Positions 1-12,942 of a DNA stretch of 12,942 nt are shown in pieces (the first letter of the stretch is position 1; the number at the start of each line of letters is the position of its first letter). The position numbers were made by a program, and so were the translations under genes. The stretch is taken from contig JALSNT010000217.1 in the NCBI GenBank assembly GCA_026986885.1, positions 1 to 12,942 of the forward strand, in the 5' to 3' direction. Source of the stretch: Desulfobulbaceae bacterium (GTDB lineage Bacteria; Desulfobacterota; Desulfobulbia; Desulfobulbales; Desulfobulbaceae). Below the pieces are notes generated by a model. It was not told the DNA's origin. It worked only from the letters and a program-made list of their open reading frames with translations, and ran no database searches.

Positions 1-778
1 CCAGAGATGGTGGCCAGCGCCGTATTTCCGGCAGCACCCACAAACGCTGCACCTTATTTGCAAGATCCATGTAATACTGCTGTTCAAGGGCGGAATTAAC
101 CGATCTGTTCCTCTGCACTCCCCCGCCGGCCGACCGGGCGTTATGCAATCGTTGCTGCTCTTGAAGAACGGCGGCTATTTCGGCCCGGGCCGTCCTGGCA
201 GCCTGGCGGGCGCGTTTTTCTTCCGCCAGGGCCCTTTGTCTGGCACGCTGTTCTTCAGCCCTTTTTCGGGCCAGGGCTTTTTCTCTTTCCCGTTTTGCCC
301 GCACCTTTTTCCGTATTCGATCCAGGGCAAGTTGCTCCCTGCGTTTTTCCTCCTCCAGCCTGGTATCTACGGCCTTTTTTATCTTCCGTTTCAGAGGCCG
401 AATGGAAATGGGCCTGGCTGCAGGCACGGGAACAGGTTCAGGTTCAGCGGCAACCGCTACCGGTACGGCTTTTTCCGGTTCAGGCACCTTGGCAACAGGT
501 TCCGGCGCCGGAGGAGGCGATGGCGGTCGCAGGGGTATGTTTTTCCGAGATTTTACCTCTGCCGGCTCCGGGTCGGGCATGGAAACCAGATCAATGGTCA
601 TCACCTCTGCAAGAAGTGGTTTTTGCGGTATTATATCAGGAAGATACCTGATAACTGCAAAGGTCAGCACGTGCAAGGTAATGCCAAAGATTATGGCCTT
701 GCCCCAGGTGTGATCACCCTGTTCCTGTCGGCGATAAAATTCCCGCTCGGAAAAAGGCGTACCGTCCAACAGGGTCAC
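1..778 (-). CDS. tolA: TolA/TonB-like energy-transducing envelope protein (partial, C-terminus off window)
   Basis: This is an open frame of 259 codons reading leftward from a GTG, with no stop before base 1, so the C-terminal end is missing. In order it shows a short cytoplasmic N-terminus, one membrane segment at about residues 26-46 with a histidine (LHVLTF) as in TonB/TolA anchors, a Pro/Glu/Val-rich stretch at about 66-125, a long Lys/Arg/Glu/Ala helical region at about 130-210, and the start of a C-terminal domain (YYMDLANKVQRLW). This is the TolA/TonB layout. The protein would span the periplasm and pass force from the TolQR motor to the outer membrane. The GTG overlaps the tolR stop (GTGA) and follows a GGGGAGGAG ribosome site, implying translational coupling. 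The tolQ-tolR-tolA order favours TolA over TonB, but the missing C-terminus would decide. Confidence 0.85.
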   Translation of the reverse strand, partial: MTLLDGTPFSEREFYRRQEQGDHTWGKAIIFGITLHVLTFAVIRYLPDIIPQKPLLAEVMTIDLVSMPDPEPAEVKSRKNIPLRPPSPPPAPEPVAKVPEPEKAVPVAVAAEPEPVPVPAARPISIRPLKRKIKKAVDTRLEEEKRREQLALDRIRKKVRAKREREKALARKRAEEQRARQRALAEEKRARQAARTARAEIAAVLQEQQRLHNARSAGGGVQRNRSVNSALEQQYYMDLANKVQRLWVLPEIRRWPPSL

Positions 779-1203
779 CTCCTCCCCTGTTTTTCTTCAG
801 AAGGACGGGTAATCATGCCGAGTTTATCAAAACCCGCCCGTTTAATATCCGCCATTGCCGTAACCACAACCCCATACGGGACATCCTTGTCGGCCCGAAG
901 ATAAATGGGCTGTTTTTTCTTCTCTTGCGGCAGTTGTTTAAGTTGAAGAAAAAGTTGATTACGATCGAGTTTGATCCGACCCAGGAAGACCTCTCCTTTG
1001 CCGTTTACGGAAACTACTATCGGTTTTTCATGCTGCCGAAGAGACTTGGCCGTGGTTTTCGGCAGATCTATCTCAAGTCCCTGGGTCATCATCGGGGCCG
1101 TAACCATAAAGATAATCAACAGCACCAGCATGACGTCAACCAGAGGTGTCACATTTATTTCAGCAACCAGTCGTTGTTTACCTTTGCCACTGACAGGACC
1201 CAT
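775..1203 (-). CDS. tolR: TolR/ExbD-family proton-channel subunit
   Basis: The 142-residue product has the TolR/ExbD pattern: a short cytoplasmic start, a single membrane helix beginning INVTPLVDVMLVLLIIFMV, then a periplasmic domain ending near the C-terminus. Asp23 in the helix matches the proton-pathway aspartate of this family, at the same number as in E. coli TolR. The protein acts in the inner membrane with TolQ, turning proton flow into movement of TolA for envelope constriction and outer-membrane integrity. The ATG at 1203 follows an AAAGGA site six bases upstream. The stop overlaps the GTG of the tolA-like gene. ExbD is the alternative assignment; the TolQ-type neighbour and gene order make TolR more likely. 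Confidence 0.9.
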   Translation of the reverse strand: MGPVSGKGKQRLVAEINVTPLVDVMLVLLIIFMVTAPMMTQGLEIDLPKTTAKSLRQHEKPIVVSVNGKGEVFLGRIKLDRNQLFLQLKQLPQEKKKQPIYLRADKDVPYGVVVTAMADIKRAGFDKLGMITRPSEEKQGRR

Positions 1204-1396
1204 GTTTTTTCCTTTGTCATTCCGGTGTTACCCCGAACCTGAGAAATTTTGACCTGAATTGAGCAATTCGGGTTTTAATAAACCGGGAAATATAAAAAAC
1301 CTGGATTGATGGTGATTACAGGCCTTATTTTTCAGGCCATGACACAGAGGGTGGATAAAAAAGATCATCTCACGCCAGACGCAAGACAGTCGGCAG
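1204..1396. repeat. tolQ-tolR intergenic spacer with inverted repeats
   Basis: This 193-base gap is long for a tol operon and holds no credible gene. It contains an inverted repeat at 1253-1272 (CCTGAATT, loop GAGC, AATTCGGG) followed on the plus strand by TTTT. It also has an overlapping small repeat (GGTTT/AAACC) and a weak GGCCT/AGGCC hairpin near 1322-1341. In the tol transcript, which runs leftward, no U-run follows the 1253-1272 stem, so it does not look like a terminator there. It may serve RNA stability or processing between tolQ and tolR. Confidence 0.4.
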
Positions 1397-2089
1397 TTAT
1401 CCCCGTGCCAGTATGTCCCGCTCAATCAGATTGAGAAAATCCGTTGAAAAATTATCTATATCAGCCTCTATATCTGCCTGTTTATTTGAAAAAAAGTTAT
1501 AAAATATAACCGCAGGAATAGCAACAGCCAAGCCGGCCGCTGTGGCGATCAGTGCCTCGGAGATACCGGGAGCAACGACTGCAAGCGATGCCGAACCACG
1601 AACGCCGATATCCTGAAAGGAACTCATAATGCCCCAGACCGTACCGAAAAGACCGATAAACGGCGTTGCGCTGCCGGTGGTGGCGAGAAATGATAAAGAC
1701 CGCCCCAACCGCTCACTTTCTATGAGTTGCGCCTTACTCACTGCCCTTTTCAGGTTTTCCATGGTCGCCAGCTGCATATCCAGGGTCTCCCCATCGGCCT
1801 GACTTGCCCTGTTGCGGGCACTGCTTATTTTTTTCATTTCGTTGTAACCGGAAACAAATACCGCCGCTTCCGGACTGAGAACATACTCGGTGGCGGCTTC
1901 ATACGCTTCACTGAGTGTTTTGCTACTCCAGAACAGGTCAATAAATTTCGCCGAACTATTTTTGGCCCGGTGAAACATGATAAGTTTAAGGATGATTATG
2001 GACCAGGAAATGACGGAAAAAAGAAGCAGGGTCGTCATGACCAGTTTAACCATTGGACCGGCCCCGGCTATCATGCTGAAGATTGACAT
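1397..2089 (-). CDS. tolQ: TolQ/ExbB-family proton-channel subunit
   Basis: The 230-residue protein has the usual TolQ length and layout: a first membrane helix at about 14-38, a cytoplasmic loop with charged helices, and two further helices at about 136-156 and 174-199. The family signature is clear in LATTGSATPFIGLFGTVWGI and in the later EALIATAAGLAVAIPAV stretch, which carries the channel-lining threonines and small residues. TolQ forms the pentameric motor with TolR in the inner membrane. The ATG at 2089 is preceded only by a weak ribosome site (CGGA about 11 bases upstream). The gene is first of the leftward tol cluster, so its promoter should lie in the 2090-2200 region, but I see no convincing -35/-10 pair there. 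ExbB is the less likely alternative. Confidence 0.92.
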   Translation of the reverse strand: MSIFSMIAGAGPMVKLVMTTLLLFSVISWSIIILKLIMFHRAKNSSAKFIDLFWSSKTLSEAYEAATEYVLSPEAAVFVSGYNEMKKISSARNRASQADGETLDMQLATMENLKRAVSKAQLIESERLGRSLSFLATTGSATPFIGLFGTVWGIMSSFQDIGVRGSASLAVVAPGISEALIATAAGLAVAIPAVIFYNFFSNKQADIEADIDNFSTDFLNLIERDILARG

Positions 2090-2600
2090 AATATAGTAAT
2101 TCCGATGTTAAGCGAAAATTGTCTGATTAGGGTTTGTACCTTCCCGACCTTTGACTTCTGTCCTCTGTTACGGATGATGGCGTCGTAAAAACTTCTGTCT
2201 ACGGCCTCGTATGTTCCATGGCGATTGTCAACATCCTACATGTCTAATTAAGACCCACCACGGAACCCCACTCCTCAGAGTCTGCGCTTACCTGTATATC
2301 TGTGTTTTGCCTGTTTTTTTTCATTGATGCCATGACCACATATTCCGGCCCAGCCATGCCGACAATGTGAAAATTGCTCGATTAAGATAGATATAAACTT
2401 GTAATTTACCCTGTCTGCCAACTATTCCTGCCTTATTGATAAGACAGGAAAACCGTCCCTGCCGGCTACATGCAAAGAACAGGCCGACCATTGGCTTGCA
2501 AATGGAATAAATAAGAGACAAGTTTAGACAGATTGTTTTCTGCAGGAGCAACCCGATCACGTTACTGAATCATTTATTATAGCGGACAATAAATATTCTG
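2090..2600. other. Non-coding stretch upstream of tolQ
   Basis: About 500 bases between the divergent tolQ and thioredoxin-reductase-like genes hold no supported gene. Short frames here have no family features. The region is AT-rich with several poly-T tracts. A motif at 2176-2190 (GATGGCGTCGTAAAA) resembles a class of intergenic repeat I associate with sulfate-reducer genomes, from memory only. An imperfect hairpin lies at 2427-2448 (CCTGCCTTA / TAAGACAGG) without a following T-run on either strand. The tolQ promoter should lie at the left end. Confidence 0.5.
2427..2448. repeat. Imperfect inverted repeat
   Basis: The arms CCTGCCTTA and TAAGACAGG pair with one mismatch around a TTGA loop. 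An upstream CCTGTCT at 2410-2416 can pair with the same right arm. No T-run follows on either strand, so this is not an intrinsic terminator. It could be an operator or a remnant of a repeat. Confidence 0.35.
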
Positions 2601-2629
2601 TCGACCTCGTTCTATGGATAGTGTAAAAT
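2601..2629 (+). promoter_or_regulatory. Candidate sigma70-type promoter for the thioredoxin-reductase-like gene
   Basis: TCGACC (four of six to TTGACA) and TAAAAT (five of six to TATAAT) are separated by exactly 17 bases. A transcript would start near 2636 and carry a leader of about 185 bases before the ATG at 2821. Found by eye only; such matches also occur by chance. Confidence 0.35.
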
Positions 2630-2639
2630 TTTATAAGCG

Positions 2640-2800
2640 AGGTATTATTTTGGGGCCGGCAACCGGAATCTCCATTCAGAGAGTCACAAACCGGTACGGC
2701 TGAACCGGAGGCAAACAGGTCACGGTCACAGCCAACGGTGAAAGCGTCCGGACATGGGCTTGCCTGCTGATTGTTTTACAGAAATTTTTTTTACTCACAT
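2640..2800 (+). other. GC-rich, self-complementary leader of the flavoprotein gene
   Basis: Between the candidate promoter and the ribosome site lies a stretch much richer in GC than its flanks. It has several self-complementary segments: CCGG-CAA-CCGG near 2656, GGCTG/CAGCC, CCGGA/TCCGG, and a long-range AGGCAA/TTGCCT pair, ending in an eight-T run at 2785-2792. This suggests a structured 5' leader. I compared it from memory with cobalamin, c-di-GMP, molybdenum-cofactor, TPP and glycine riboswitch cores and found no match. No coding potential is seen. Confidence 0.3.
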
Positions 2801-2820
2801 TTACCAAGGAGAGTCATATT

Positions 2821-3732
2821 ATGGCTGATTCCATTATCGATGTTGTGATCATAGGGGCCGGACCGGCCGGCATCCAGGCAGCAATCCATGCCGCCAGAAA
2901 AAAAACCAGCGTCCTGGTACTTGGTCGAATTGAAAACAGTGCCCTCTATGCCGCCCATATTGAAAATTATGCCTGTATTAAAGGAGTGACGACCGGTAAA
3001 AAACTTCTTGAAGCCGGTATTGAGCAGATACAAAAATTCGGCGCAGAGTTAAGAGCTGAGGATGTTCTTAAAATTAAGCAGATAGACACGTTGTTTCACC
3101 TTGAACTTGAAAGCGGCGAAGCTGTTATATGTCGGACAATCATTTTTTCCATGGGTGTCTCTAAAAAGAAGCTCAACGTACCCGGAGAGCGTGAATTATT
3201 CGGGCAGGGGGTCAGCTATTGTGTTGACTGCGATGCCAATTTTTACAAAAACGCCAGGGTGATGGTTGCCGGCAACAGAAGTGCTGCCGTGGACGGCGCT
3301 TTGACGCTGACCGATTATGCCCGCAAGGTTTACCTGGTTGCCAGGGAACTGTCCGTCTCCCGGGAGCTCATGGACCGTCTGCAAAAGAGTCAGGTTGAAC
3401 TTCTTACCCCTAACTGGGTCAAGAAGATTAACGGAGAAAACGAGGTTTCATCTGTTACCCTTGAAGATGATTCCACAGTTGACCTTGACGGTATATTTAT
3501 TGAACTTGGTTCCAAAGGCGCGCTTGAACTTGCCACCCGCATCGGCGTTGCCCTGGATAGCGAACATTTTAAATATATTGAAACAAACAGACGACAGGAA
3601 ACCAATATTGCCGGCATCTATGCCGCCGGTGATATTGTCGGCCCTCCGTACCAGATGGCCAAGGCTGTCGGTGAAGGCTGCATCGCCGGAATGGAAGCGG
3701 CCACCTTTGCCCGTAAGCAGAAAAGAACATGA
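2821..3732 (+). CDS. Thioredoxin-reductase-like flavoprotein with atypical pyridine-nucleotide site
   Basis: The 303-residue protein has the low-molecular-weight thioredoxin reductase fold: an FAD-binding GAGPAG at residues 12-17, a redox CVDC at 134-137 followed by Asp138, and a C-terminal FAD motif (IYAAGDIVG) near 263-271. The second Rossmann segment is degenerate. Where typical enzymes have GGGNTA or GGGDSA, this one has GNRSAA at 151-156, and the HRRDxxR NADPH-phosphate motif is replaced by VARELSVSR at 173-181. It should therefore reduce a thioredoxin-like partner but may not use NADPH; ferredoxin or another donor is possible. The ATG has an AAGGAG site nine bases upstream. It stands alone, behind a structured leader and in front of a terminator. 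The family is secure; donor and partner are not. Confidence 0.85.
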   Translation: MADSIIDVVIIGAGPAGIQAAIHAARKKTSVLVLGRIENSALYAAHIENYACIKGVTTGKKLLEAGIEQIQKFGAELRAEDVLKIKQIDTLFHLELESGEAVICRTIIFSMGVSKKKLNVPGERELFGQGVSYCVDCDANFYKNARVMVAGNRSAAVDGALTLTDYARKVYLVARELSVSRELMDRLQKSQVELLTPNWVKKINGENEVSSVTLEDDSTVDLDGIFIELGSKGALELATRIGVALDSEHFKYIETNRRQETNIAGIYAAGDIVGPPYQMAKAVGEGCIAGMEAATFARKQKRT

Positions 3733-3846
3733 AATTCCTCCATGGATTCCGGTATATACCCAGACAATCCAACAGTTCCTGTTGTTTTTTTTCCATAATT
3801 ATGTTTAGATAAGCGTGTAATTTCAATCCGAACAAATCCCCTTTAT

Positions 3847-3888
3847 CCTGTCTGATACCTTCTTTTCTTCTATCAGGCGGGTTTTTTT
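3847..3888 (+). terminator. Rho-independent terminator after the flavoprotein gene
   Basis: An 11-pair stem (CCTGTCTGATA with TATCAGGCGGG, including G-U pairs) closes a 13-base pyrimidine loop and is followed directly by seven T. It lies about 115 bases past the stop at 3732 and separates this gene from the pyc operon. The reverse strand has no T-run, so it acts only rightward. Confidence 0.85.
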
Positions 3889-4117
3889 ATATCCTGGAGC
3901 GGCGCAGGCTACATGGCAGTACAACTCTGTGCCTGCCGGAGTTCTATGGACGGTTTGTTGGAGAGGGGGGGAATCATCCCGGGAAGGGTGACCGACAGGA
4001 ATACTGACAATCAGCGGCCCGATAGGATTTTGGGATACCGCAGCAACGGGCAATGAAAACATCTTTGTCAGAAATCAGGTCACACTCTTTTTTTGGGGAA
4101 AATATTTAATACAGGAC
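3889..4117 (+). other. Leader region of the pycAB operon
   Basis: These 229 bases between the terminator and pycA hold no gene. There is a GC-rich hairpin candidate (GCAGGC at 3904-3909 with GCCTGC at 3931-3936), then a G-rich segment near 3961-3985, then an AT-rich stretch up to the start codon. I found no convincing -35/-10 pair and no riboswitch class I recognise. Confidence 0.35.
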
Positions 4118-5566
4118 ATGCAATTGAAGACAAAAATTCTTGTGGCCAATCGTGGCGAAATAGCCATTCGTATTATTCGCGCCATCCAGGAACTCAATTA
4201 CGAGGCCGTTGCTGTTTATGAATCACCCGATGGTGATTCCCGACATATACGAATCGCTGATGAGGCGGTCTGGATCGGCGACGGACCGCGTTGTGACTAT
4301 TTAAATATCGACAAGATCATAGATGCCGCCATCCATGCCGGTGCGGTGGCGATTCATCCCGGATATGGCTTTTTAGCGGAAAATCCTGATTTTGCTCGAG
4401 CCTGTGAAGATGCCGGTCTTATTTTTATCGGTCCTTCATCGGACGTAATTGAAAAACTCGGCAACAAGGTTATGGCTCGCAGGATCATGGCCGATGCCGG
4501 AATCCCCATGGTTCCGGGAACCGACAACCTCAAAGCCGGAGATGAGGGGCTTGCCGAGGCAATAGCTTTCGGCAAAGAACACGGATATCCGATTATGCTC
4601 AAAGCTACCTCCGGTGGCGGTGGCCGTGGTATTCGCCGGATAGAAAAGGAGTCCGAACTCGATGAGCAGTATTTTATAGCCCGCTCCGAGGCTAAAGCCG
4701 CCTTTAATGATGATTCGATCTATGTGGAAAAGGTGGTGGTTCAGCCTAAACATGTAGAGGTGCAGATCATCGCCGATAAAACAGGAAAAACCATCCATCT
4801 CGGCACCCGGGACTGTTCCATCCAGAGGCGCAACCAGAAGCTGATAGAGATTGCACCGGCTTTTCATCTCAGTCCGGAAATGACCGAGGAGATATGTCAA
4901 ACAGCCATCCGGGCTGCCCAGGCTGCCAACTATTTCAACGCCGGCACTGTCGAATTTTTAGTTGACAGTGATAATTCCTATTATTTCATGGAGATAAACA
5001 CAAGGTTACAGGTCGAACATACGGTCACGGAAATGATTACCGGTATTGATATCGTCCGCACCCAGATTAAACTGGCCCTGGGTAAGGAACTGTTGTTTGA
5101 CCAGGGACACGTACAACTGCGCGGCCATGCCATTGAAATGCGTATCAATGCCGAGGATCCGCAAAATAACTTTATGCCGGAAGGTGGTAAAACCATCACC
5201 GTTTATAATTCTCCCGGTGGTTACGGGGTTCGGTTAGACGGGTTTTGTTATCAGGGTCTCACCATTCCCGAGGCCTATGATTCCCTTCTGGTCAAATTGA
5301 CCGTATTCGGCTGGTCATGGAATGAAACCGTTGACCGGCTCAGAAGATGCCTGCATAACTTTGTTATCACCGGTCCCAAAACCACAATTCCCTTTTACCT
5401 CAATCTGATCAATCATCCGGATTTCAAAAGAGGCCGGTTCGACACCTCCTTTCTTGATAAAAATGAACAACTGTTTGAGTATGACGAACAGGCAAGCGAG
5501 GTAAACAAACTGGCCCGTCTGATAGCTGAAATACACCAAAAGAGACAAAACACGTACGCTGCCTGA
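4118..5566 (+). CDS. pycA: Biotin carboxylase subunit of pyruvate carboxylase
   Basis: The 482-residue protein is a complete biotin carboxylase. It begins with KILVANRGEIAIRIIRA and has the ATP-grasp glycine loop SGGGGRG at 165-171. Catalytic and metal residues match the E. coli enzyme in pattern: Glu279, Glu292, Asn294, Arg296 and Glu300 within FMEINTRLQVEH. The C-terminal domain (INAEDP, SPGGYGVR, YDSLLVKL) is intact. It uses ATP and bicarbonate to carboxylate biotin, here presumably the biotin on the downstream subunit. That partner gene is a carboxyltransferase 46 bases away, so this is the A subunit of a two-subunit pyruvate carboxylase rather than AccC of acetyl-CoA carboxylase, although it could serve both. 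The only Shine-Dalgarno-like sequence is AGGA, very close to the ATG; no alternative start exists because an in-frame TAA lies just upstream. Confidence 0.9.
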   Translation: MQLKTKILVANRGEIAIRIIRAIQELNYEAVAVYESPDGDSRHIRIADEAVWIGDGPRCDYLNIDKIIDAAIHAGAVAIHPGYGFLAENPDFARACEDAGLIFIGPSSDVIEKLGNKVMARRIMADAGIPMVPGTDNLKAGDEGLAEAIAFGKEHGYPIMLKATSGGGGRGIRRIEKESELDEQYFIARSEAKAAFNDDSIYVEKVVVQPKHVEVQIIADKTGKTIHLGTRDCSIQRRNQKLIEIAPAFHLSPEMTEEICQTAIRAAQAANYFNAGTVEFLVDSDNSYYFMEINTRLQVEHTVTEMITGIDIVRTQIKLALGKELLFDQGHVQLRGHAIEMRINAEDPQNNFMPEGGKTITVYNSPGGYGVRLDGFCYQGLTIPEAYDSLLVKLTVFGWSWNETVDRLRRCLHNFVITGPKTTIPFYLNLINHPDFKRGRFDTSFLDKNEQLFEYDEQASEVNKLARLIAEIHQKRQNTYAA

Positions 5567-5612
5567 TCACAATTCTACACTATCTGACCAGGCGAACGAA
5601 ACGGATATAAAG

Positions 5613-7520
5613 ATGATACGTATTACTGAAAAAATGACGGCGGCAACCGTGCTTGACACTCTTCGTCGGGCCGACGGTTATTATATCACCAACACGGCCC
5701 GGGATATGTCCCAGTCCGATTATAAAAACCGTATTCTCCTGCATACCGATCTTATGGCTGCCGAGGCCAGGGAAGAATCCGGTTATTTTTCCCTGGAAAT
5801 AACCGGCGGCGCTTCCGTTCATGTCGATATTCTTCGTAAACAGGTGGACCCTTTTCTCAAGCTGAAACTGCTCAGAGAACAAATGCCCGACACCATGTTT
5901 CAGACCCTGTGCCGGGGTGTTAATCTTTTTGGGTATCGACCGTACCCGCAAAACGTCATCAGGCTGACGGTACGGGAATTTGCTCAATATGTCGATGTCT
6001 GGAGGACCTTTGACTTCATGAACCATGTGCCCAACATGGAAGCGGTTTTTGAAGAGGTTGCCAGGGCCGGCAAGATTAATGAGCCCTGTATCTGTTTTTC
6101 AACAGGTCCGGAACACACTGATGAGTTCTATGTAAAAAAGGTACGGGAAATTCTGGATGTTACCGGCCCTGAAATTATTCTGTGCATTAAAAATCATGGC
6201 GGCCTCGGCACGCCTAAACGTATCGGCGAGCTGGTTAATGCCATTAAACAGGCATATCCTGAACTGGTTATTCATTATCACGGTCACAATACGGACGGCA
6301 ATGATATCGGCCGAATCCTGGCCGCCGTTTTAAACGGCGCTGCCATAGTTGATGCGGCCGATCATTCCTTTACCGGTTTTTACGGGCCACCACCGGTTCT
6401 CACCGTTATCCAGACACTGAAAGACTATGGCAAGACCGCAATCGGTATTAACGAAGAGGCCGTAATTCGCTCATCTGATGTCATTCGCGACCAGCGGCAG
6501 TATTATGCACAGTTTGAGGCCCAGATCAAAGGATTCATGCCTACCGTGCAGATTCACAAGCTGCCCGGAGGGGCAATGGGTTCCAGCCTTGAGCAGGCGG
6601 CCAAAGGCGGCTTTCTCGACAAAATGCCCGATATCCTGCATAAAGAATTGCCCAAGGTACAAAAAGAGCTCGGTAACTGGTGGAGTGTAACCCCTGGTTC
6701 CCAGATTCTCTGGACGACGGCCGTGACCAATGTTCTTGAGGGTGAACGCTATGGTAATCCATCGGGTGATTTGAAGAATCTGCTCCTGGGGAAATATGGT
6801 CCCTTCCCCTTCTACCAGCCGGAAGACTGGATTTATGAAAAAGCGTTCGGCTCTGGCTGGAAAACCGTGCTTGAGCAGGACGGAGGCATGGAACTCATTG
6901 ATGACATTGATATTGAAAAGGAACGGGAAACCCTGGGCAAAAAACTGGGAAAAGAGCCTACCAAACAACAGCTTGTTACCTATCTGCAACATCCTAATGA
7001 TGCTGTAGAATTCTTCAAATTTGAAGAAAAATTCGGCCGGTCATATGTTTTACCGCCATCAATTTTCCTGCGACAAGGAGGATTTCAATTGGGTGAAAGC
7101 CTGATATTTCGTGATCATAACGGTAAAGAACATCACATTGAAATCGGCCCAAGTCAGCAGGATGATGACGGCAGAACCAATGTCTACCTCAATGTCGATC
7201 ACTCCCAGCGAATCTATATGATTGAACCGGATGTGCGCGAGGGAACTTCACCCCAGGCCGCACTTTCCAGAGATGAGATTGCCAAACTGGCAAAAAGTGG
7301 GGATATTCGGGCACCATTCGGCGGCAATGTCTATGAGATTTCAGTGGAAGAGGGCCGGGAAGTAACGGTTGGTGATCAGGTCGCTATTCTTGAGGCCATG
7401 AAAATGCAGACCCCCATTGTCAGCGAGGTCACCGGCAGAGTCGTTTTGATTTCAGCAGAAACAGGCCAGGCCTTAAAACCAGGGGATAAAATTCTCCAGA
7501 TAGAAAGCAGCGGGGATTAA
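5613..7520 (+). CDS. pycB: Pyruvate carboxylase subunit B-like carboxyltransferase with biotinyl domain
   Basis: The 635-residue protein has an HMGL-like carboxyltransferase barrel (about 1-300), a PYC/OADA domain (about 300-500) and a C-terminal biotinyl domain with EAMKMQ, where Lys597 is the expected biotin site 38 residues from the end. It should move the carboxyl group from biotin to pyruvate, giving oxaloacetate. Key positions are kept: Asp31 and Gln34 in RDMSQS, Arg101 in CRGVNLFGY, Lys193 (expected carboxylated lysine) and His223/His225 (metal). Others differ from the usual motifs: IKDMAGL reads IKNHGGL and HTHDTSG reads HYHGHNTDG. A clear acceptor preference cannot be read from this. 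The oxaloacetate decarboxylase alpha subunit shares this layout, but no membrane beta or gamma subunit is nearby and a biotin carboxylase is, which favours a carboxylase. Confidence 0.85.
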   Translation: MIRITEKMTAATVLDTLRRADGYYITNTARDMSQSDYKNRILLHTDLMAAEAREESGYFSLEITGGASVHVDILRKQVDPFLKLKLLREQMPDTMFQTLCRGVNLFGYRPYPQNVIRLTVREFAQYVDVWRTFDFMNHVPNMEAVFEEVARAGKINEPCICFSTGPEHTDEFYVKKVREILDVTGPEIILCIKNHGGLGTPKRIGELVNAIKQAYPELVIHYHGHNTDGNDIGRILAAVLNGAAIVDAADHSFTGFYGPPPVLTVIQTLKDYGKTAIGINEEAVIRSSDVIRDQRQYYAQFEAQIKGFMPTVQIHKLPGGAMGSSLEQAAKGGFLDKMPDILHKELPKVQKELGNWWSVTPGSQILWTTAVTNVLEGERYGNPSGDLKNLLLGKYGPFPFYQPEDWIYEKAFGSGWKTVLEQDGGMELIDDIDIEKERETLGKKLGKEPTKQQLVTYLQHPNDAVEFFKFEEKFGRSYVLPPSIFLRQGGFQLGESLIFRDHNGKEHHIEIGPSQQDDDGRTNVYLNVDHSQRIYMIEPDVREGTSPQAALSRDEIAKLAKSGDIRAPFGGNVYEISVEEGREVTVGDQVAILEAMKMQTPIVSEVTGRVVLISAETGQALKPGDKILQIESSGD

Positions 7521-7605
7521 GCTCCTAAAGCCGGTTTCACCCGCAACCCAATAGAACAATGGACATCGAATTTCGAACTGCAGTGTGCCCTGAAATGTTC
7601 GCTCT

Positions 7606-7651
7606 CGTCACACCGCTCTGCGGTGTGACGCAATCTGTGGCGCTCTGCGCC
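7606..7651. repeat. Tandem perfect hairpins with identical TCT loops
   Basis: The first hairpin, 7606-7630, has arms CGTCACACCGC and GCGGTGTGACG around TCT. The second, 7639-7651, has arms GGCGC and GCGCC around TCT. No T-run follows on either strand, so these are not standard intrinsic terminators. Their position just past pycB resembles REP-type extragenic palindromes. Confidence 0.6.
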
Positions 7652-7691
7652 TGTTGTCCGTATGGAATAAACAATGTTGATTACCATTAAA

Positions 7692-7731
7692 GAAAGCAGA
7701 CAAAGGTAATGGTTGCTGTTTGTCCGCTTTC
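7692..7731 (-). terminator. Candidate terminator hairpin for the darP transcript
   Basis: Arms GAAAGC-A-GACAAA (7692-7704) and TTTGTC-C-GCTTTC (7719-7731) pair with one mismatch around a 14-base loop. Read leftward, the stem is followed by TTTAAT, a weak U-rich tail. It lies about 70 bases beyond the darP stop at 7800. No U-tail follows in the rightward direction. Confidence 0.35.
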
Positions 7732-7799
7732 GTTCCACTCAAGCAGACCTACAATGTTAATTTTCTTGTTTTTTATGACAGAAAATGAGGAGTAAGGCA

Positions 7800-8357
7800 C
7801 TAATGATTTTCTTTTTCCCGCTGGTTCTCCAATTCGCGGGCAGCACGAAGCAGGCGAAATATCTCCCGGCTGTGCCTGCTCTGCCGGGTACGGGCGTAGA
7901 TAGCAGCCAGCCTACCGAGGGCTATGGTATCGACCATCGGCAGAGCCTTTTTGATTTCTCCGATGGTCACACTCTCCCAGATTTCGGACAATTCCTGCTG
8001 CGCGGCGGCCGCCTGTTTTCTCTTTGCTATGGCCTCATTAAGCAGACTGTCCCGGAGATATTCCAGCTCGTGAAACTGCTTTTTGTCCCTTAGTTCTCTC
8101 CCTTTTCTCTCGGTAAGAAAATTATAGAGATCGGCAAGGGATTTTGTTGCTAAACCCTTGCTGATGCTCTTGGTGATATATTTAATCTGCCGCTTCCTTG
8201 CCCCACCCTTGAGGGCCTGTGTTTCCGTCAGCAGGAGACGAATTTCCCGGTCGCAGGGCACCCTTTGGACAACGTGCTCCGGCAGAGCAACCAGCTCCCG
8301 CACCAACTGTTCAACCTCTTTAATCCTTCTCTTCTGCTCCGATCTACTTAATCTCAT
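7800..8357 (-). CDS. darP: DarP/YjgA (DUF615) ribosome-associated protein
   Basis: The 185-residue, highly charged protein matches the DUF615 family. GGARKRQIKYITKSI corresponds to the EGRRRQLQLIGKML region of E. coli DarP, and SREIFRLLRAARELE near the C-terminus corresponds to ARQIFQYLRELAE. The family binds the immature large ribosomal subunit and promotes late 50S assembly in E. coli. The overall length is similar to the E. coli protein, but the acidic N-terminal extension is absent and the middle is longer. The ATG at 8357 has only a weak ribosome site (GGGTAAAG). It lies 92 bases downstream of the DUF166 gene on the same strand with no terminator between them, so the two may be cotranscribed. 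Family assignment is confident; function in this organism is inferred. Confidence 0.85.
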   Translation of the reverse strand: MRLSRSEQKRRIKEVEQLVRELVALPEHVVQRVPCDREIRLLLTETQALKGGARKRQIKYITKSISKGLATKSLADLYNFLTERKGRELRDKKQFHELEYLRDSLLNEAIAKRKQAAAAQQELSEIWESVTIGEIKKALPMVDTIALGRLAAIYARTRQSRHSREIFRLLRAARELENQREKENH

Positions 8358-8449
8358 GATATCTTTACCCGTGGCCTAAAACCAAAAAAACGCTTAATTT
8401 CGGGAGAACTCAAGTACAGAATAAATGCGCAGGCAGTTGATGCGTTCGT

Positions 8450-9094
8450 TTATTTCTCACCTTGTTCTTTTTTTTGTTGCGCACGCGCACAGGCCTTTTG
8501 CAAGGCAGCTCGATGGACATAACCGGCATAATGGACAGGGCTTTTGCCGGTAACAGGGTCAAAACGGCCTGGATCTGCCGTACAATGATATTGCACGAGC
8601 CGGGGAAGCAGGATCAGGGCCTCGGCAACGGGGACACCTGTAACCTCGGCCAGTACATCCCAGGTGGCACCGCAGGGCGCTCCGCGAATGACCTTTATAT
8701 CACGAATAATCCCCTGGCTGAGCTCAACCTGATATTCAGGGAAACCAAATCTTTCTCCATACCCTGCCAGTTTCTTATGGCGGCCAAGTCCGCAACAGGT
8801 AAACGGTGTATACCCCTTGTCATTGTGTTTGCCGGAAGAAACAACGGGAATCTCCAGCCTGCTGCACAGTTCAATAAGATGATGGGAGAGATCGGGGTGG
8901 GACAGATAATTGAGTACCAGCTCAGCGTTCCGGACAGTTACCGGCTTGATATACAATTCAGGATCATCGATAAATTCAGGCAACTGTTCATCAATGGCAA
9001 CAACGGTAACTTCGTCATCGGCATTGCCGAATCGTTGAAGACCTTCGATCTTGTTGCGGCCGGATCCATTTTGTTCAAACACAAGGATTTGCAT
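8450..9094 (-). CDS. DUF166 family protein of unknown function
   Basis: The 214-residue soluble protein fits the DUF166 family, which is mainly known from methanogens and some sulfate reducers and is sometimes loosely labelled as thymidylate synthase. Conserved segments seen are CCGLGRHKKLAGYGERFG (100-117), the GxI-RxxxVxRGAPCGATW block (128-145) and LVQYHCTADPG (166-176). Cysteines at 77, 100, 101, 141 and 171 could bind a metal or an Fe-S cluster; this is inference. The C-terminus after residue 176 is a basic tail. No clear ribosome site lies close to the ATG at 9094; an AGGA is about 20 bases upstream. The gene sits just beyond the terminator of the hdrA-mvhD operon and upstream of darP on the same strand. 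No biochemical function can be given. Confidence 0.75.
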   Translation of the reverse strand: MQILVFEQNGSGRNKIEGLQRFGNADDEVTVVAIDEQLPEFIDDPELYIKPVTVRNAELVLNYLSHPDLSHHLIELCSRLEIPVVSSGKHNDKGYTPFTCCGLGRHKKLAGYGERFGFPEYQVELSQGIIRDIKVIRGAPCGATWDVLAEVTGVPVAEALILLPRLVQYHCTADPGRFDPVTGKSPVHYAGYVHRAALQKACARAQQKKEQGEK

Positions 9095-9112
9095 AAATTA
9101 ATTATTTTTCAT

Positions 9113-9147
9113 CCTAAATTTAGCAATTTAGGTGAAGATCTCTTCAT
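9113..9147. repeat. Two small inverted repeats upstream of the DUF166 gene
   Basis: CCTAAAT (9113-9119) and ATTTAGG (9126-9132) flank a six-base loop. Next to it is a near-perfect palindrome, TGAAGATCTCTTCA (9134-9147). Both lie between the mvhD terminator and the DUF166 start, where a promoter for DUF166 is expected, so either could be an operator. They could also be chance structure in AT-rich DNA. Confidence 0.4.
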
Positions 9148-9161
9148 CCTTATTTTTTTAA

Positions 9162-9200
9162 TAGAAAAAGCCCGTCACCACTGGAGATGAACGGGCTTTT
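9162..9200 (-). terminator. Rho-independent terminator of the hdrA-mvhD operon
   Basis: A perfect 10-pair stem (AAAAGCCCGT, 9166-9175, with ACGGGCTTTT, 9191-9200) encloses a 15-base loop. Read leftward, the U-run continues as TTTTTCTATT. It begins about 20 bases past the mvhD stop and separates that operon from the DUF166 gene. The stem is symmetrical enough to work weakly in the other direction, but no gene approaches from that side. Confidence 0.9.
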
Positions 9201-9220
9201 ACAGGCGAAATAAAAAAGGT

Positions 9221-9823
9221 TCAGGCAGCAAAGGCCTTGTCAAAGGTCTTTGCCATTTTGGTGGTGATTACCTCATCAATATGTTCCCTGGTCCAGATTT
9301 TATCCTTGCGAACCGCCTTGGTCGCATTGCCGTAGCTGATGCGGCTCTTCATGCTGGAAACAAATTTCAGCCCTTTTTCCAGTCGGCTTTTCAGCTCTTC
9401 TTCACTTAATCCTTCGGCCTGGCCAAGGGGACCCAATGCCTTCATCTGCTCAGTAAATTCGGTAATTAACTGGACAAAACGAGGGGCTTCGGCTGCCGAT
9501 GCCCATTGCAGATCATAGCGTTCTTGACGGATTCCTATCTCGTCGAGAACTTTGTGTACCAGACTCTCAGCACCCATTGCATCATAATTACCAACCTGGT
9601 AATGACATTCGCCGAGTTGTCAGCCGCCGGTAAAGATGCCGTCTGCTCCTTCAATAAAGCCGCGAATAATAAAGGCAGGATCAACCCGGCCGGTACACAT
9701 AACCCTGATTGTCCGCAGGTTAGGCGGATATTGGAAACGGGAAACCCCGGCGGCATCAGCTGCGGCATAGCAGCACCAGTTACATAAAAAACCCAGTATT
9801 CTGGGACTATACTCATCATCCAT
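9221..9823 (-). CDS. mvhD: MvhD-type iron-sulfur subunit, selenoprotein (in-frame TGA read as Sec68)
   Basis: Read through one TGA at 9620-9622, the frame gives 200 residues. The first part is typical MvhD: GFLCNWCCYAAADAAGVSR with Cys14, Cys17 and Cys18, then RVMCTGRVDP (Cys43), then GADGIFTGG-U-QLGECHY (Sec68, Cys73), then GNYDAM. Homologues commonly have Cys at the TGA position, and Sec variants (for example VhuD of methanogens) are known. The family carries a [2Fe-2S] cluster and passes electrons from a hydrogenase or formate dehydrogenase to HdrA. The start ATG follows GAGG by eight bases, and only three bases separate it from the hdrA stop, so the genes are translationally linked. Residues after about 133 form a charged tail beyond the usual family length. 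Without recoding the gene would be a 67-residue stub plus a 118-residue fragment starting at 9577. Confidence 0.9.
9578..9622 (-). promoter_or_regulatory. Sec codon and candidate bacterial SECIS element in mvhD
   Basis: The UGA at 9622-9620 is followed by a six-pair stem AUUACC / GGUAAU (9603-9598 and 9592-9587) with the five-base loop AGGUU. The GG and the GU in this loop lie about 24-26 bases after the UGA, within the range usual for bacterial SECIS hairpins, and GU is the feature SelB recognises. The lower stem can extend with bulges to 9578. The structure was found by eye, not by a folding program. Confidence 0.8.
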
Positions 9824-9826
9824 ATC

Positions 9827-12800
9827 TTACACCTCGACGGTTTCTTTTACAGTGGCCGCACCAAAGGCCTCTATCTGAGAAGTTATCTGTTCGTTAGTGA
9901 AGCCGCCCATGGAGATGGCAAAGGTCGGGCAGTGGCTGGCACAGATGCCGCAGGCCTTACAGGAGGCGGCAATGGTCCTGGCCTTTCGTTTCTTTTCCAC
10001 CTTGATCATCTCAATGGCACCAAAGGGGCACAGGCTGACACACAGGCCACAGCCGATGCATGTTTTTTCGTCGACCGAGGAAACAATAGGATCGACAGAC
10101 ACCGCCCCTTTGACCAGCGGAATAGCGGCTTTAGCGGCAGCCGCCTGGGCCTGGGCAATGGTTTCATCCACTGGTTTCGGGCCGTGCGCAAGACCACAGA
10201 CATAGACACCGTCCACCGGCAGTTCAACTGGTCTGAGTTTGACATGGGCCTCAAGGAAAAAATTATCATCGGTAAGCGGCGCCTTGAGCATCCTGCTTAA
10301 GTCTTCAGTACCGTCGGGCACGATACCCACGGACAGGACCAGCAGATCAGGTGTCAGGTCCAGTTCTTCCTGCATGAGCGGATCGAAAAAACCGACATGG
10401 AGACGACGTCCCTTTTCATAGACCTTCGGCTTGTTCTCCAGCTCGTACGGTATAAAAATCACACCCTTGAGTCGAGCCTGACGATAGGCATCCTCGGCAT
10501 AGCCATAGGTCCGCATATCACGATAAAGAACAATAACCCTGGATTCCGGATTTATTTCCTTGATCTGCAGGGCATTTTTTACCGCATGGTTACAGCAGAC
10601 CTTGGAGCAGTAATTAAGATCATCACCCCGGGAACCGGCACATTGAATCATGATGACAGAACCGGGTGCCCGGTTCTTCGCCTTACCGGCAAGCCGTTTT
10701 TCCAGTTGCTGCTGGGTAATAACCTTGCTGTTGCTGCCAAGTAAATAACCATCGGGTCGATGTTCATGGCCGCCGGTGGCCAAGATAACCACACCATGGT
10801 CTACTGTTTGTTCTTGTTTATTCTTACCGGTCCCGGTGGCGATAACCGAAGAAAAATTACCGACAAAACCCGAGCTGTGAATGATCTCGGCATTGGTCAA
10901 CACATCAATTGCTTTGTTTTTCTTGACCCGGGCGACCAGTTCTTTCAAATAGCCTGCGGTCTCAGACCTGCTTAAGGTATGGTTAAGCAGGCCGAGATTT
11001 CCGCCAAGAGACTTGCCTTTTTCAAGGAGAACCGATTCAAATCCCTGTTCAGCCATGGTCAATGCCGCCACCATACCGGCAATGCCGCCACCGATGATCA
11101 GCGCCCTCTTGGTCACCGGCACGGTCTGCTCCGGCAGCGGTTTAAGTTTCCTCGCCTTGGCCACTGCCATGCGCACCAGATCCTGTGATTTATCCGTGGC
11201 CGCATCCGGCTCTCCTGCATGTACCCAGGAACATTGATCGCGAATATTGACCATCTCGATAAGACAGGGATTCAGGCCTGCGTCTTTCAAGGTTTCCTGA
11301 AAGAGCGGCTCATGGGTACGTGGTGAGCAGGCGGCAATGACAACCCGGTTCAGATTGTGATCGATGATCGTCTTTTTCAGTGTTTCCACCGCATCCTGGG
11401 AGCAGGAATACAGAGAATCAGTGTGATACACAACCCCTTCCATGTCGGCAACCGAATTTTCCACCCGGTGTACATCAACAACGGAACTGATGTTTATGCC
11501 GCAATGACAGACAAAAACCCCAATCCTTGGTTCGTCGGCATCTGTTTTTTCCTGCGGGTAATTTTTATGAACAATACCCTGACCGCGTTGTTTTTTGAGA
11601 AGGCCGGCAGCGATACCGGCGGCGGCAGAGGCCTGGGTAACGGATTCGGGGATATCCTTGGGCCCTTGAAAGGAGCCGGCCACAATTACTCCTTCCCTTT
11701 TTGTGGCCAGGGGTTGAAAAACCTCTGATTTGGCGAAATTATACCGGTTCAGTTCTATACCGGTAATATCTGCAATTCCTTCGGCATCTCGAGGTGACTC
11801 CAGACCGACGGACAGTACTACCAGATCAAAGGGTGCAAATTCATGCGCCCCTGCCAGGGTGGAATAGGTCAGTTGCAACCGGTTTTCCCAGGGCGTAATG
11901 TCACCGACCTTGGCGCGGACAAATTTAATGCCCATGGACTCGGCACGGTGCTGGGCTTTGTCAAACTCCTTACCCTGGGTACGGATATCCATATAATAGA
12001 TGGTAATGTCTACTTCCGGATCATGTTCCTTGGCGACCATTGCCTCCTTGATTGCATACATACAGCAGACCGAAGAACAGTAGCCGTTGTCACAGCCAAG
12101 ATCACGGGAACCAACGCACTGGATAAAGGCAATACGTTTGGGATGACGGCCGTCCGAGAAACATTTGACCTCACCCTTAAACGGGCCGGAGGCGGTTGTC
12201 ATCCGCTCAAATTCGAAGCTGGTAACAACATCCGGATGTTTGCCGTAGCTGTATTTTTCCAGGGTTGACCGATCAATTTTACCGAATCCCGGTGACAGGA
12301 TAACCGCCCCGATATTAAGTTCAATTTCTTTGGGCTTCTGATTAAAATTAATCGCATGACTCTGACAGACCGGTACGCAGATCTGACAGGTATCATACTG
12401 CAGATGCAGGCAGGAGGAAGGATCAATGTAATAGGTGGCAGGCACTGCCTGGGCGTAATCAATATGAATCGGCCGCGTTATCGACAGTCCTTCATTATAA
12501 GGGTCCACATGATGCCGGGGACAGTACTGGGTACACAATCCGCAGGCCGTGCAGGCATCAGCATCTATGTATCGGGGACGCTGGTGAATTTTTGCAGTAA
12601 AATCACCTGATTTTCCCTCCAATGCCAGCAAATCAGCATTGGTTAACATTTCTATATTTGGAGACCGACCGGCCTCTACCAGCTTGGGTGCCAGTATTCA
12701 GAGAGAACAGTCATTGGTGGGAAATGTCTTGTCCAGCTGCGCCATGACACCACCGACCACCGCAGACTTTTCCACCAGATATACATAGTAACCAAGCTCG

Positions 12801-12886
12801 GTCAGGTCCAGGGCGGCCTGAATACCGGCGATACCGCCGCCGACAACCATAACTGATCCGGCCCTGTGTTCCATTCCTTTTCCCAT
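9827..12886 (-). CDS. hdrA: Long HdrA-like flavoprotein, selenoprotein (in-frame TGA read as Sec63)
   Basis: Read through TGA at 12698-12700, the frame encodes 1019 residues. The first module has an FAD motif [12 protein letters not shown] near residues 15-26, then NDCSL-U-ILAPK with Sec63. It continues with an inserted ferredoxin domain (Cys112/115/118/122 and Cys159/167/170/174) and a CVGSRD...YCSSVCC cluster motif (Cys257, 270, 274, 275). The second module begins near 454 with [11 protein letters not shown] and [10 protein letters not shown], followed by FAD motif IIGGGIAGM (597-605). It has another CAGSRG...YCSKVCC motif (749, 760, 764, 765) and two C-terminal [4Fe-4S] ferredoxin motifs (943-953 and 976-986). 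HdrA proteins are cytoplasmic flavin-based electron bifurcation or transfer hubs. GGAG lies six bases before the ATG at 12886. The partner mvhD follows directly; hdrB and hdrC are not in the window. The family is certain; donor, acceptor and bifurcation are inferred. Confidence 0.93.
12668..12700 (-). promoter_or_regulatory. Sec codon and candidate bacterial SECIS element in hdrA
   Basis: The UGA at 12700-12698 is followed two bases later by a six-pair stem ACUGGC / GCCGGU (12695-12690 and 12673-12668). Inside it is an ACC/GGU stem with loop CAAGCU; an alternative pairing CCA/UGG leaves loop AGC with G second. The loop G lies 15 bases after the UGA, at the short end of the usual SECIS range, and there is a four-base bulge on the 3' side. 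Found by eye; less typical than the mvhD element. Confidence 0.65.
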
Positions 12887-12898
12887 TACAATCTCCAG

Positions 12899-12910
12899 AG
12901 TAAATTTACT
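12899..12910. repeat. 12-base perfect palindrome upstream of hdrA
   Basis: AGTAAATTTACT lies immediately before the hdrA ribosome site, in the expected promoter or leader zone, with TATA-like sequences (TATAGT) further upstream on the minus strand. It could be an operator or part of the core promoter. Only 56 bases upstream of the gene are visible, so nothing more can be said. Confidence 0.3.
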
Positions 12911-12942
12911 ATAAGCACTATATTTACACCTACCTAAACTGA

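Follow-up and report, generated by a model that had tools for sequence, protein, structure and literature searches.

Predicted selenocysteine codons in a fused hdrA gene and the adjoining mvhD gene of a Desulfobulbaceae bacterium

The hdrA gene and its in-frame TGA codon

Contig JALSNT010000217.1 of a Desulfobulbaceae bacterium (assembly GCA_026986885.1), analyzed here over its positions 1 to 12,942 and referred to below as the window, carries on its minus strand an hdrA gene that is interrupted by an in-frame TGA codon and is followed directly by an mvhD gene with a TGA codon of its own. The features of hdrA that matter here are the following; selenocysteine is abbreviated Sec, and SECIS denotes a selenocysteine insertion sequence.

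9827-12886, minus strand: hdrA, encoding a fused (type II) HdrA with two thioredoxin-reductase-like domains; 1,019 residues, one in-frame TGA
12698-12700, minus strand: TGA codon 63 of hdrA in CSL-U-ILAPK, predicted to be read as Sec from TGA/Cys conservation in the loci covering it
12661-12676, minus strand: SECIS-like hairpin GAGGCC-GGUC-GGUCUC, assigned from its fold, codon constancy, and a published model rule
11117-11536, minus strand: N-terminal cluster domain of HdrA lying in the second half of the protein (codons 451-590, with Cys460, 462, 495, and 520), the predicted partner of Sec63; from structure alignment, domain end approximate

The hdrA frame runs for 1,019 codons from the ATG at 12886, ahead of which lies a plausible ribosome-binding site (CTGGAG), to the TAA at 9829-9827, and its single internal stop is the TGA at 12700-12698, which is preceded by NDCSL and followed in the same frame by ILAPKLVEAGRSPNI. 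A preliminary description, made from the sequence alone, had placed the TGA after NDCSL in a frame encoding HdrA, and translation together with alignment to a solved HdrA bears out both statements. It had also foreseen that a plain gene call would lose the first 79 residues, and in the plain list of open reading frames (ORFs) hdrA indeed begins at the ATG at 12649, has 940 codons, and lacks those residues along with the first flavin adenine dinucleotide (FAD) motif. The same loss is seen among database proteins. The best 120 of 7,999 scored matches to hdrA, one of which is the window's own protein, are all 915-952 aa in length, and when aligned to the read-through HdrA, 109 of them start at residue 80 and the others at residues 69-103, with none starting at or before residue 63. 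Because all these start points fall after residue 63, the listed entries represent a shortened form of HdrA, and truncation of this protein by gene callers at Sec codons has been noted before (PMC12054007). The window's gene stands for many such entries, all 120 listed proteins being without the first FAD motif, and correcting them alters how the metabolism of Desulfobulbales, autotrophic sulfur disproportionators among them, is read.

Codon counts were made in the best 80 of at least 558 related loci from a genome collection, retaining for each locus the most identical hdrA match with a codon starting TG, which excludes matches to the second half of the protein. All loci except L030 cover codon 63, and among these 79 the codon is TGA in 73, TGT in five, and TGC in one. 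The column thus holds only TGA or Cys, so that the TGA is no chance event; an in-frame UGA aligned with Cys in homologs is the pattern by which selenoproteins are recognized, and Cys is, as had been proposed for the CxxU motif, the only other residue seen at this position (six loci). The closest of the listed loci, L001, titled Desulfobulbaceae, is 91% identical, a likeness that suggests a place for the window in Desulfobulbales. In L001-L005, identity over the first 180 residues, a stretch that takes in the TGA, is 87-94%.

The SECIS-like hairpin starts 21 nt after the UGA, and its loop, GGUC, lies 27 nt after the UGA with G as the first loop base. This agrees with the bacterial SECIS model as given in the accessible part of PMC13188914, where the loop lies 16-37 nt after the UGA and has a G as its first or second base. 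Across the window and 73 loci (74 sequences, counting rows that have the residue concerned), hdrA codons 71-75 show almost no synonymous variation: GAG is used in 74 of 74 rows (41.3 expected), GCC in 67 of 67 (38.5), GGT in 67 of 74 (19.8), CGG in 72 of 74 (19.1), and TCT in 67 of 69 (10.5), with expectations based on the codon usage of these same genes. The corresponding z values, 7.5-20.1, are too high because the rows are related. Codon identity among pairs sharing a residue is 0.82-1.00 in these five codons against a mean of 0.45 in 54 others, which ranks the stretch first of 57 five-codon stretches. Comparing the window and 72 loci (L023 was dropped for having too little upstream sequence) with 11 Cys-form sequences, namely six loci and five second copies, we found mixed codons in the Cys forms where the Sec forms carry the hairpin. 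A scan of the window against Rfam up to an E value of 1 gave no match, so that the hairpin calls made here are supported by comparison and not by a curated family.

The preliminary description had proposed a search for the Sec machinery, and we made it in the genomes from which 17 of the 80 loci come, 12 of them Sec-form and five Cys-form, and in 14 control genomes. All 12 Sec-form relatives have selB, selD, and tRNA-Sec (at least 67 bits), and 11 have selA, with none over the cut-off in G010. Over all 17 genomes the family cut-offs are passed by selB in 14, selA in 13, selD in 13, and tRNA-Sec in 15; the tRNA-Sec matches score 67-81 bits in 14 genomes, and the remaining one, at 47.6 bits in G016, is close to other tRNA-like matches. 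The control genomes pass for selB in two, selA in one, selD in two, and tRNA-Sec in five, and because of these five a tRNA-Sec match over the cut-off carries little weight by itself. Among the Cys-form genomes, the three titled Bathyarchaeota (G014, G016, and G017) have no selB, selA, or selD over the cut-offs, where bacterial models may miss archaeal forms, and the other two (G012 and G015) have selB, selA, and tRNA-Sec. Many strong selD matches themselves hold one in-frame TGA, and ARAGORN found no tRNA within the window. Taken together, the TGA in 73 of 79 loci, the constrained hairpin, and the machinery in Sec-form relatives uphold the earlier assignment, and comparison of sequences indicates that UGA codon 63 of hdrA is almost certainly decoded as Sec.

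The mvhD gene and the upstream fdhA fusion

Directly after hdrA lie four further features:

9221-9823, minus strand: mvhD/frhD, with an in-frame TGA at codon 68 and a TGA as its own stop; its ATG is 3 nt past the hdrA stop codon
9620-9622, minus strand: TGA codon 68 of mvhD in GG-U-QLGECHY, predicted to be read as Sec; TGA in 65 of 71 adjacent mvhD genes
9587-9603, minus strand: SECIS-like hairpin of mvhD, ATTACCA-GGT-TGGTAAT, with its loop 23 nt after the UGA
9165-9200, minus strand: terminator-like hairpin with a T run after mvhD, found by eye and by folding (-19.3 kcal/mol)

The second candidate Sec codon, in mvhD, had been missed by the preliminary description. The product of this gene matches the solved MvhD (5odc_D, E value 4.1e-47), the part after the TGA matches the Pfam model FlpD over its cut-off, a plausible ribosome-binding site (GAGGTG) lies within the 3' end of hdrA, and the frame ends at codon 201, which is TGA. 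Taking as adjacent mvhD the first mvhD match 2.3-3.9 kb on from hdrA, we found the gene in 71 of the 80 loci, some of the nine without it being at contig ends, and codon 68 is TGA in 65 of these genes and Cys in six. Two of the six (L066 and L072) have a TGA at codon 17 instead, giving CxWU, and in one genome, G065, a single MvhD has TGA at both codons 17 and 68, which suggests a Sec site in MvhD that shifts from one conserved Cys position to another. In the window's MvhD the CNWC motif at residues 14-17 is all Cys, and the predicted Sec lies in GG-U-x4-C at codon 68; the site differs from the CxxU motif given for the MvhD/FrhD family in the accessible part of a review table (PMC13188914). In 50 of 58 genomes of the order to which G001 belongs, the gene matching MvhD best contains an in-frame TGA, counted at any position, and one of the 50 contains a TAG as well. 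In 61 rows, made up of the window and all TGA loci but five of the 65 (L033, L037, L009, L030, and L077), only one synonym occurs at each of mvhD codons 74, 75, 76, 78, and 79 wherever the residue is kept, and the hairpin contains one compensated pair, seen in three rows. We read UGA codon 68 of mvhD as likewise decoded as Sec by a SelB/tRNA-Sec system.

Tandem copies that mix Sec and Cys forms were observed in L077 (3-3026 and on to about 7100), where a Cys HdrA and an adjoining Sec MvhD are followed by a second hdrA with a TGA (4044) and a Cys MvhD (7092).

The hairpin at 9165-9200 likely ends the operon after mvhD; our terminator scan did not list it, its loop exceeding the loop limit of the scan. 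The three promoter-like sites (4.8 in shuffles) and eight terminator-like sites (5.4 in shuffles, sd 1.8) returned by the promoter and terminator scan were not used.

Upstream of hdrA in L001 (1747-5922), ORFs of 842 and 544 codons form one TGA-broken gene encoding a fusion of a GltD-like protein and formate dehydrogenase alpha (fdhA), and a gene for the acetyl-CoA decarbonylase/synthase gamma subunit is also present. The corresponding codon of the fdhA fusion is TGA in all 35 of the 80 loci that cover it, so relatives of the window have three consecutive genes with candidate Sec codons, in the order fdhA fusion, hdrA, mvhD. The fusion gene is outside the window, which stops 56 nt upstream of hdrA.

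Architecture of HdrA and the role of position 63

Residues 13-329 of the read-through HdrA match residues 147-459 of the solved HdrA 5odc_A with no gap up to codon 63, which aligns with residue 197, a Cys in CSICILAPK. We take the Sec of Methanocaldococcus jannaschii HdrA to be residue 197 as well. Residues 451-629 match 5odc_A residues 2-180, and residues 830-1008 match 470-649. As in type II HdrA, there are two thioredoxin-reductase-like domains with HdrA architecture, residues 9-434 and 451-1013 both matching solved HdrA. The first half (9-434) has the FAD domain with an inserted ferredoxin domain and is without the N-terminal domain, so that the two halves show a complementary loss, one retaining only the residue-197 ligand and the other only the N-terminal domain. 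The bifurcation residues E356 and K409 (PMC12054007) correspond to E227 and K280 of the first half, which are kept in 35 of 35 rows; our chosen-row alignments, A1, A2, and A3, have 27, 23, and 35 rows, respectively. The read-through protein scores below the curated NCBIfam cut-offs of NF040770 (976.1 against 1,100 bits), NF041891 (706.4 against 1,300), and NF041778 (692 against 1,400), models that are 762-777 positions long compared with 1,019 residues for the fusion. Matches from Foldseek and VIA ranking below the HdrA rows were other flavoenzymes and were not used.

Cys197 of HdrA is described as a [4Fe-4S] ligand that reaches the N-terminal domain of the partner HdrA in trans (PMC9012536); the 5odc structure is assigned to Methanothermococcus thermolithotrophicus in PDB titles and to M. 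wolfeii in that paper. Because Sec63 aligns with this residue and the halves show complementary loss, a selenolate-ligated [4Fe-4S] cluster is suggested, and on balance Sec63 is probably a ligand of the cluster held by the N-terminal domain in the second half. In the mechanism that we propose, a SelB/tRNA-Sec system would read UGA codon 63 as directed by the hairpin 21 nt downstream, and the fused polypeptide would act as its own HdrA heterodimer through Sec63 and the N-terminal domain of the second half. Electrons would travel between MvhD and HdrA, in one direction or the other, and the partner would be a formate dehydrogenase of the NAD(P) type, which in relatives is encoded directly upstream and would feed the Wood-Ljungdahl pathway. 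Coupling of HdrA-MvhD to formate dehydrogenase appears quite likely. That the selenolate cluster joins the halves of a self-dimerizing HdrA on the ferredoxin path, which with the TGA codons of fdhA and mvhD would put selenium at three successive electron-transfer sites, we regard as an even chance. For the whole explanation, Sec decoding in hdrA and mvhD plus a ligand role of Sec63, we estimate a probability of roughly 0.6. If Sec63 does ligate an iron-sulfur cluster, this HdrA would be a natural example in which the tuning of an electron-bifurcating enzyme by selenium can be tested, and Cys forms are available for comparison.

Several observations weigh against this explanation. The case for the ligand role consists of an alignment and a single secondary source, which concerns a Cys enzyme; none of the four cysteines of the N-terminal domain varies, which would permit an all-Cys cluster; Cys60 is likewise invariant, for which a ligand role of Sec63 gives no explanation; and residues 55-57 of the structural model have a predicted local distance difference test score (pLDDT) below 50. 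As to the hairpins, codon 85 of hdrA, outside the hairpin, has a uniformity of 0.94, the highest of the 54 other codons and nearly that of the hairpin codons. The window's hdrA hairpin on its own folds ordinarily (z -1.29, with 25 of 200 shuffles folding as well or better), and the 27-row alignment contains no two-sided compensatory change in it, with 92.0% of cells paired against 91.9% in column shuffles. Six of these 27 rows break at least one pair, L068, L073, and L078 breaking three or four of the six, and at the compensated pair of the mvhD hairpin four rows are unpaired.

The preliminary description had assigned Sec63 to a CxxU redox pair beside the first FAD, in which it would form a selenenylsulfide or selenol-thiol pair with Cys60. 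The location holds, the site being within the FAD/thioredoxin-reductase-like domain, the CxxU spacing fits such a pair, and Cys60 and position 63 are invariant in 35 of 35 rows. However, the residue aligned with Sec63, Cys197, is a [4Fe-4S] ligand in trans according to PMC9012536, and the two HdrA halves show matching complementary loss, which makes the redox pair doubtful, and we hold it as a tentative alternative to a cluster ligand. We also searched the literature for a redox mechanism based on CxxU in HdrA, and the matches listed contain no statement of one.

Explanations in which no Sec is inserted fare far worse. If the TGA were a true stop, either a restart at the ATG at 12649 would give a working protein of 940 residues, consistent with the plain ORF and with all 120 listed database proteins beginning after the TGA, or the gene would be broken; yet the first 180 residues are conserved across the TGA in L001-L005, the stretch before it is homologous to solved HdrA and includes the FAD motif GGGIAG, and six loci have a Cys codon in its place, so that a true stop is very unlikely. 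A sequencing or assembly error turning TGC or TGT into TGA, a concern raised in the preliminary description, is scarcely credible when the same TGA occurs in 73 loci and the next gene has a second TGA in 65 of 71; we found no point in its favor. Genome-wide reassignment of TGA, for example to Trp, would account for in-frame TGA codons in two neighboring genes, but codon 63 is TGA or Cys and never TGG in the 79 covering loci, and the idea was rejected because the mvhD frame is itself closed by a TGA, at codon 201; its probability is similarly negligible. Decoding as Sec is the reading that we retain.

Relation to known systems and neighboring genes

According to the accessible sections of PMC1794560, Sec-HdrA with an adjacent Sec-FrhD and with fused or clustered hdrA was described in 2006 in Deltaproteobacteria, and Sec-HdrA occurs in M. 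jannaschii, other archaea, Syntrophobacter fumaroxidans, and Desulfotalea psychrophila. The system studied here shares with these a Sec HdrA, an adjoining Sec FrhD/MvhD, and hdrA-hdrA fusion or clustering in a bacterial operon, and its Sec-HdrA is thus of an already known kind; it differs in that the neighbor in the window's relatives is fdhA, not frhG-frhA-glpC. The CxxU motif of its HdrA is that tabulated for Sec-HdrA in the accessible part of PMC13188914, and its two thioredoxin-reductase-like domains are those of archaeal fused (type II) HdrA (PMC12054007). As in HdrA3/4 of ANME archaea and HdrA of Moorella, the N-terminal domain and residue 197 are split complementarily; in the window, however, the residue-197 half comes first and the residue is predicted to be Sec, whereas HdrA3/4 have the opposite order (PMC9012536).

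The fdhAB-hdrL-mvhD cluster of Desulfurivibrio sp. AMeS2 has the same gene order beside Wood-Ljungdahl genes, as far as the accessible text of PMC12142623 describes it. Our L042 is an AMeS2 contig with a TGA in all three genes, and the word selenocysteine has no occurrence in that paper. Desulfobacterium autotrophicum HRM2 similarly has Sec-rich hdr/mvhD/fdh loci, with Sec hdrA or hdrL, mvhD, and fdhA in one genome (accessible part of PMC2702500), and in Chloroflexi hdr loci also lie beside fdh genes, as HdrBCA-MvhD-FdhBA with a Sec FdhA (PMC5736913). Sec-HdrA or Sec-MvhD is further reported, in the accessible portions of the respective papers, from Desulfobacterium (PMC2702500), Desulfococcus (PMC5109826), and Asgard archaea (PMC11227280, PMC9723677). 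A limited search of the open-access literature found no link of the HdrA Sec to the Cys197 cluster ligand; PMC9012536 covers HdrA Cys197, and its single use of selenocysteine concerns FdhA.

Beside the operon, at 8450-9094 on the minus strand, lies a gene for DfsP, of the DUF166 (seleno)protein family (NF041372, 254.5 bits against a cut-off of 200), with no in-frame TGA in the window or in L001 and L002, the only two of the 80 loci where DfsP was found. On the plus strand, a gene at 2821-3732 encodes a thioredoxin-reductase-like protein with CVDC (237 bits, below the TrxB cut-off of 343) and lies near a pair of genes for biotin carboxylase and a pyruvate carboxylase B-type protein (4118-7520).
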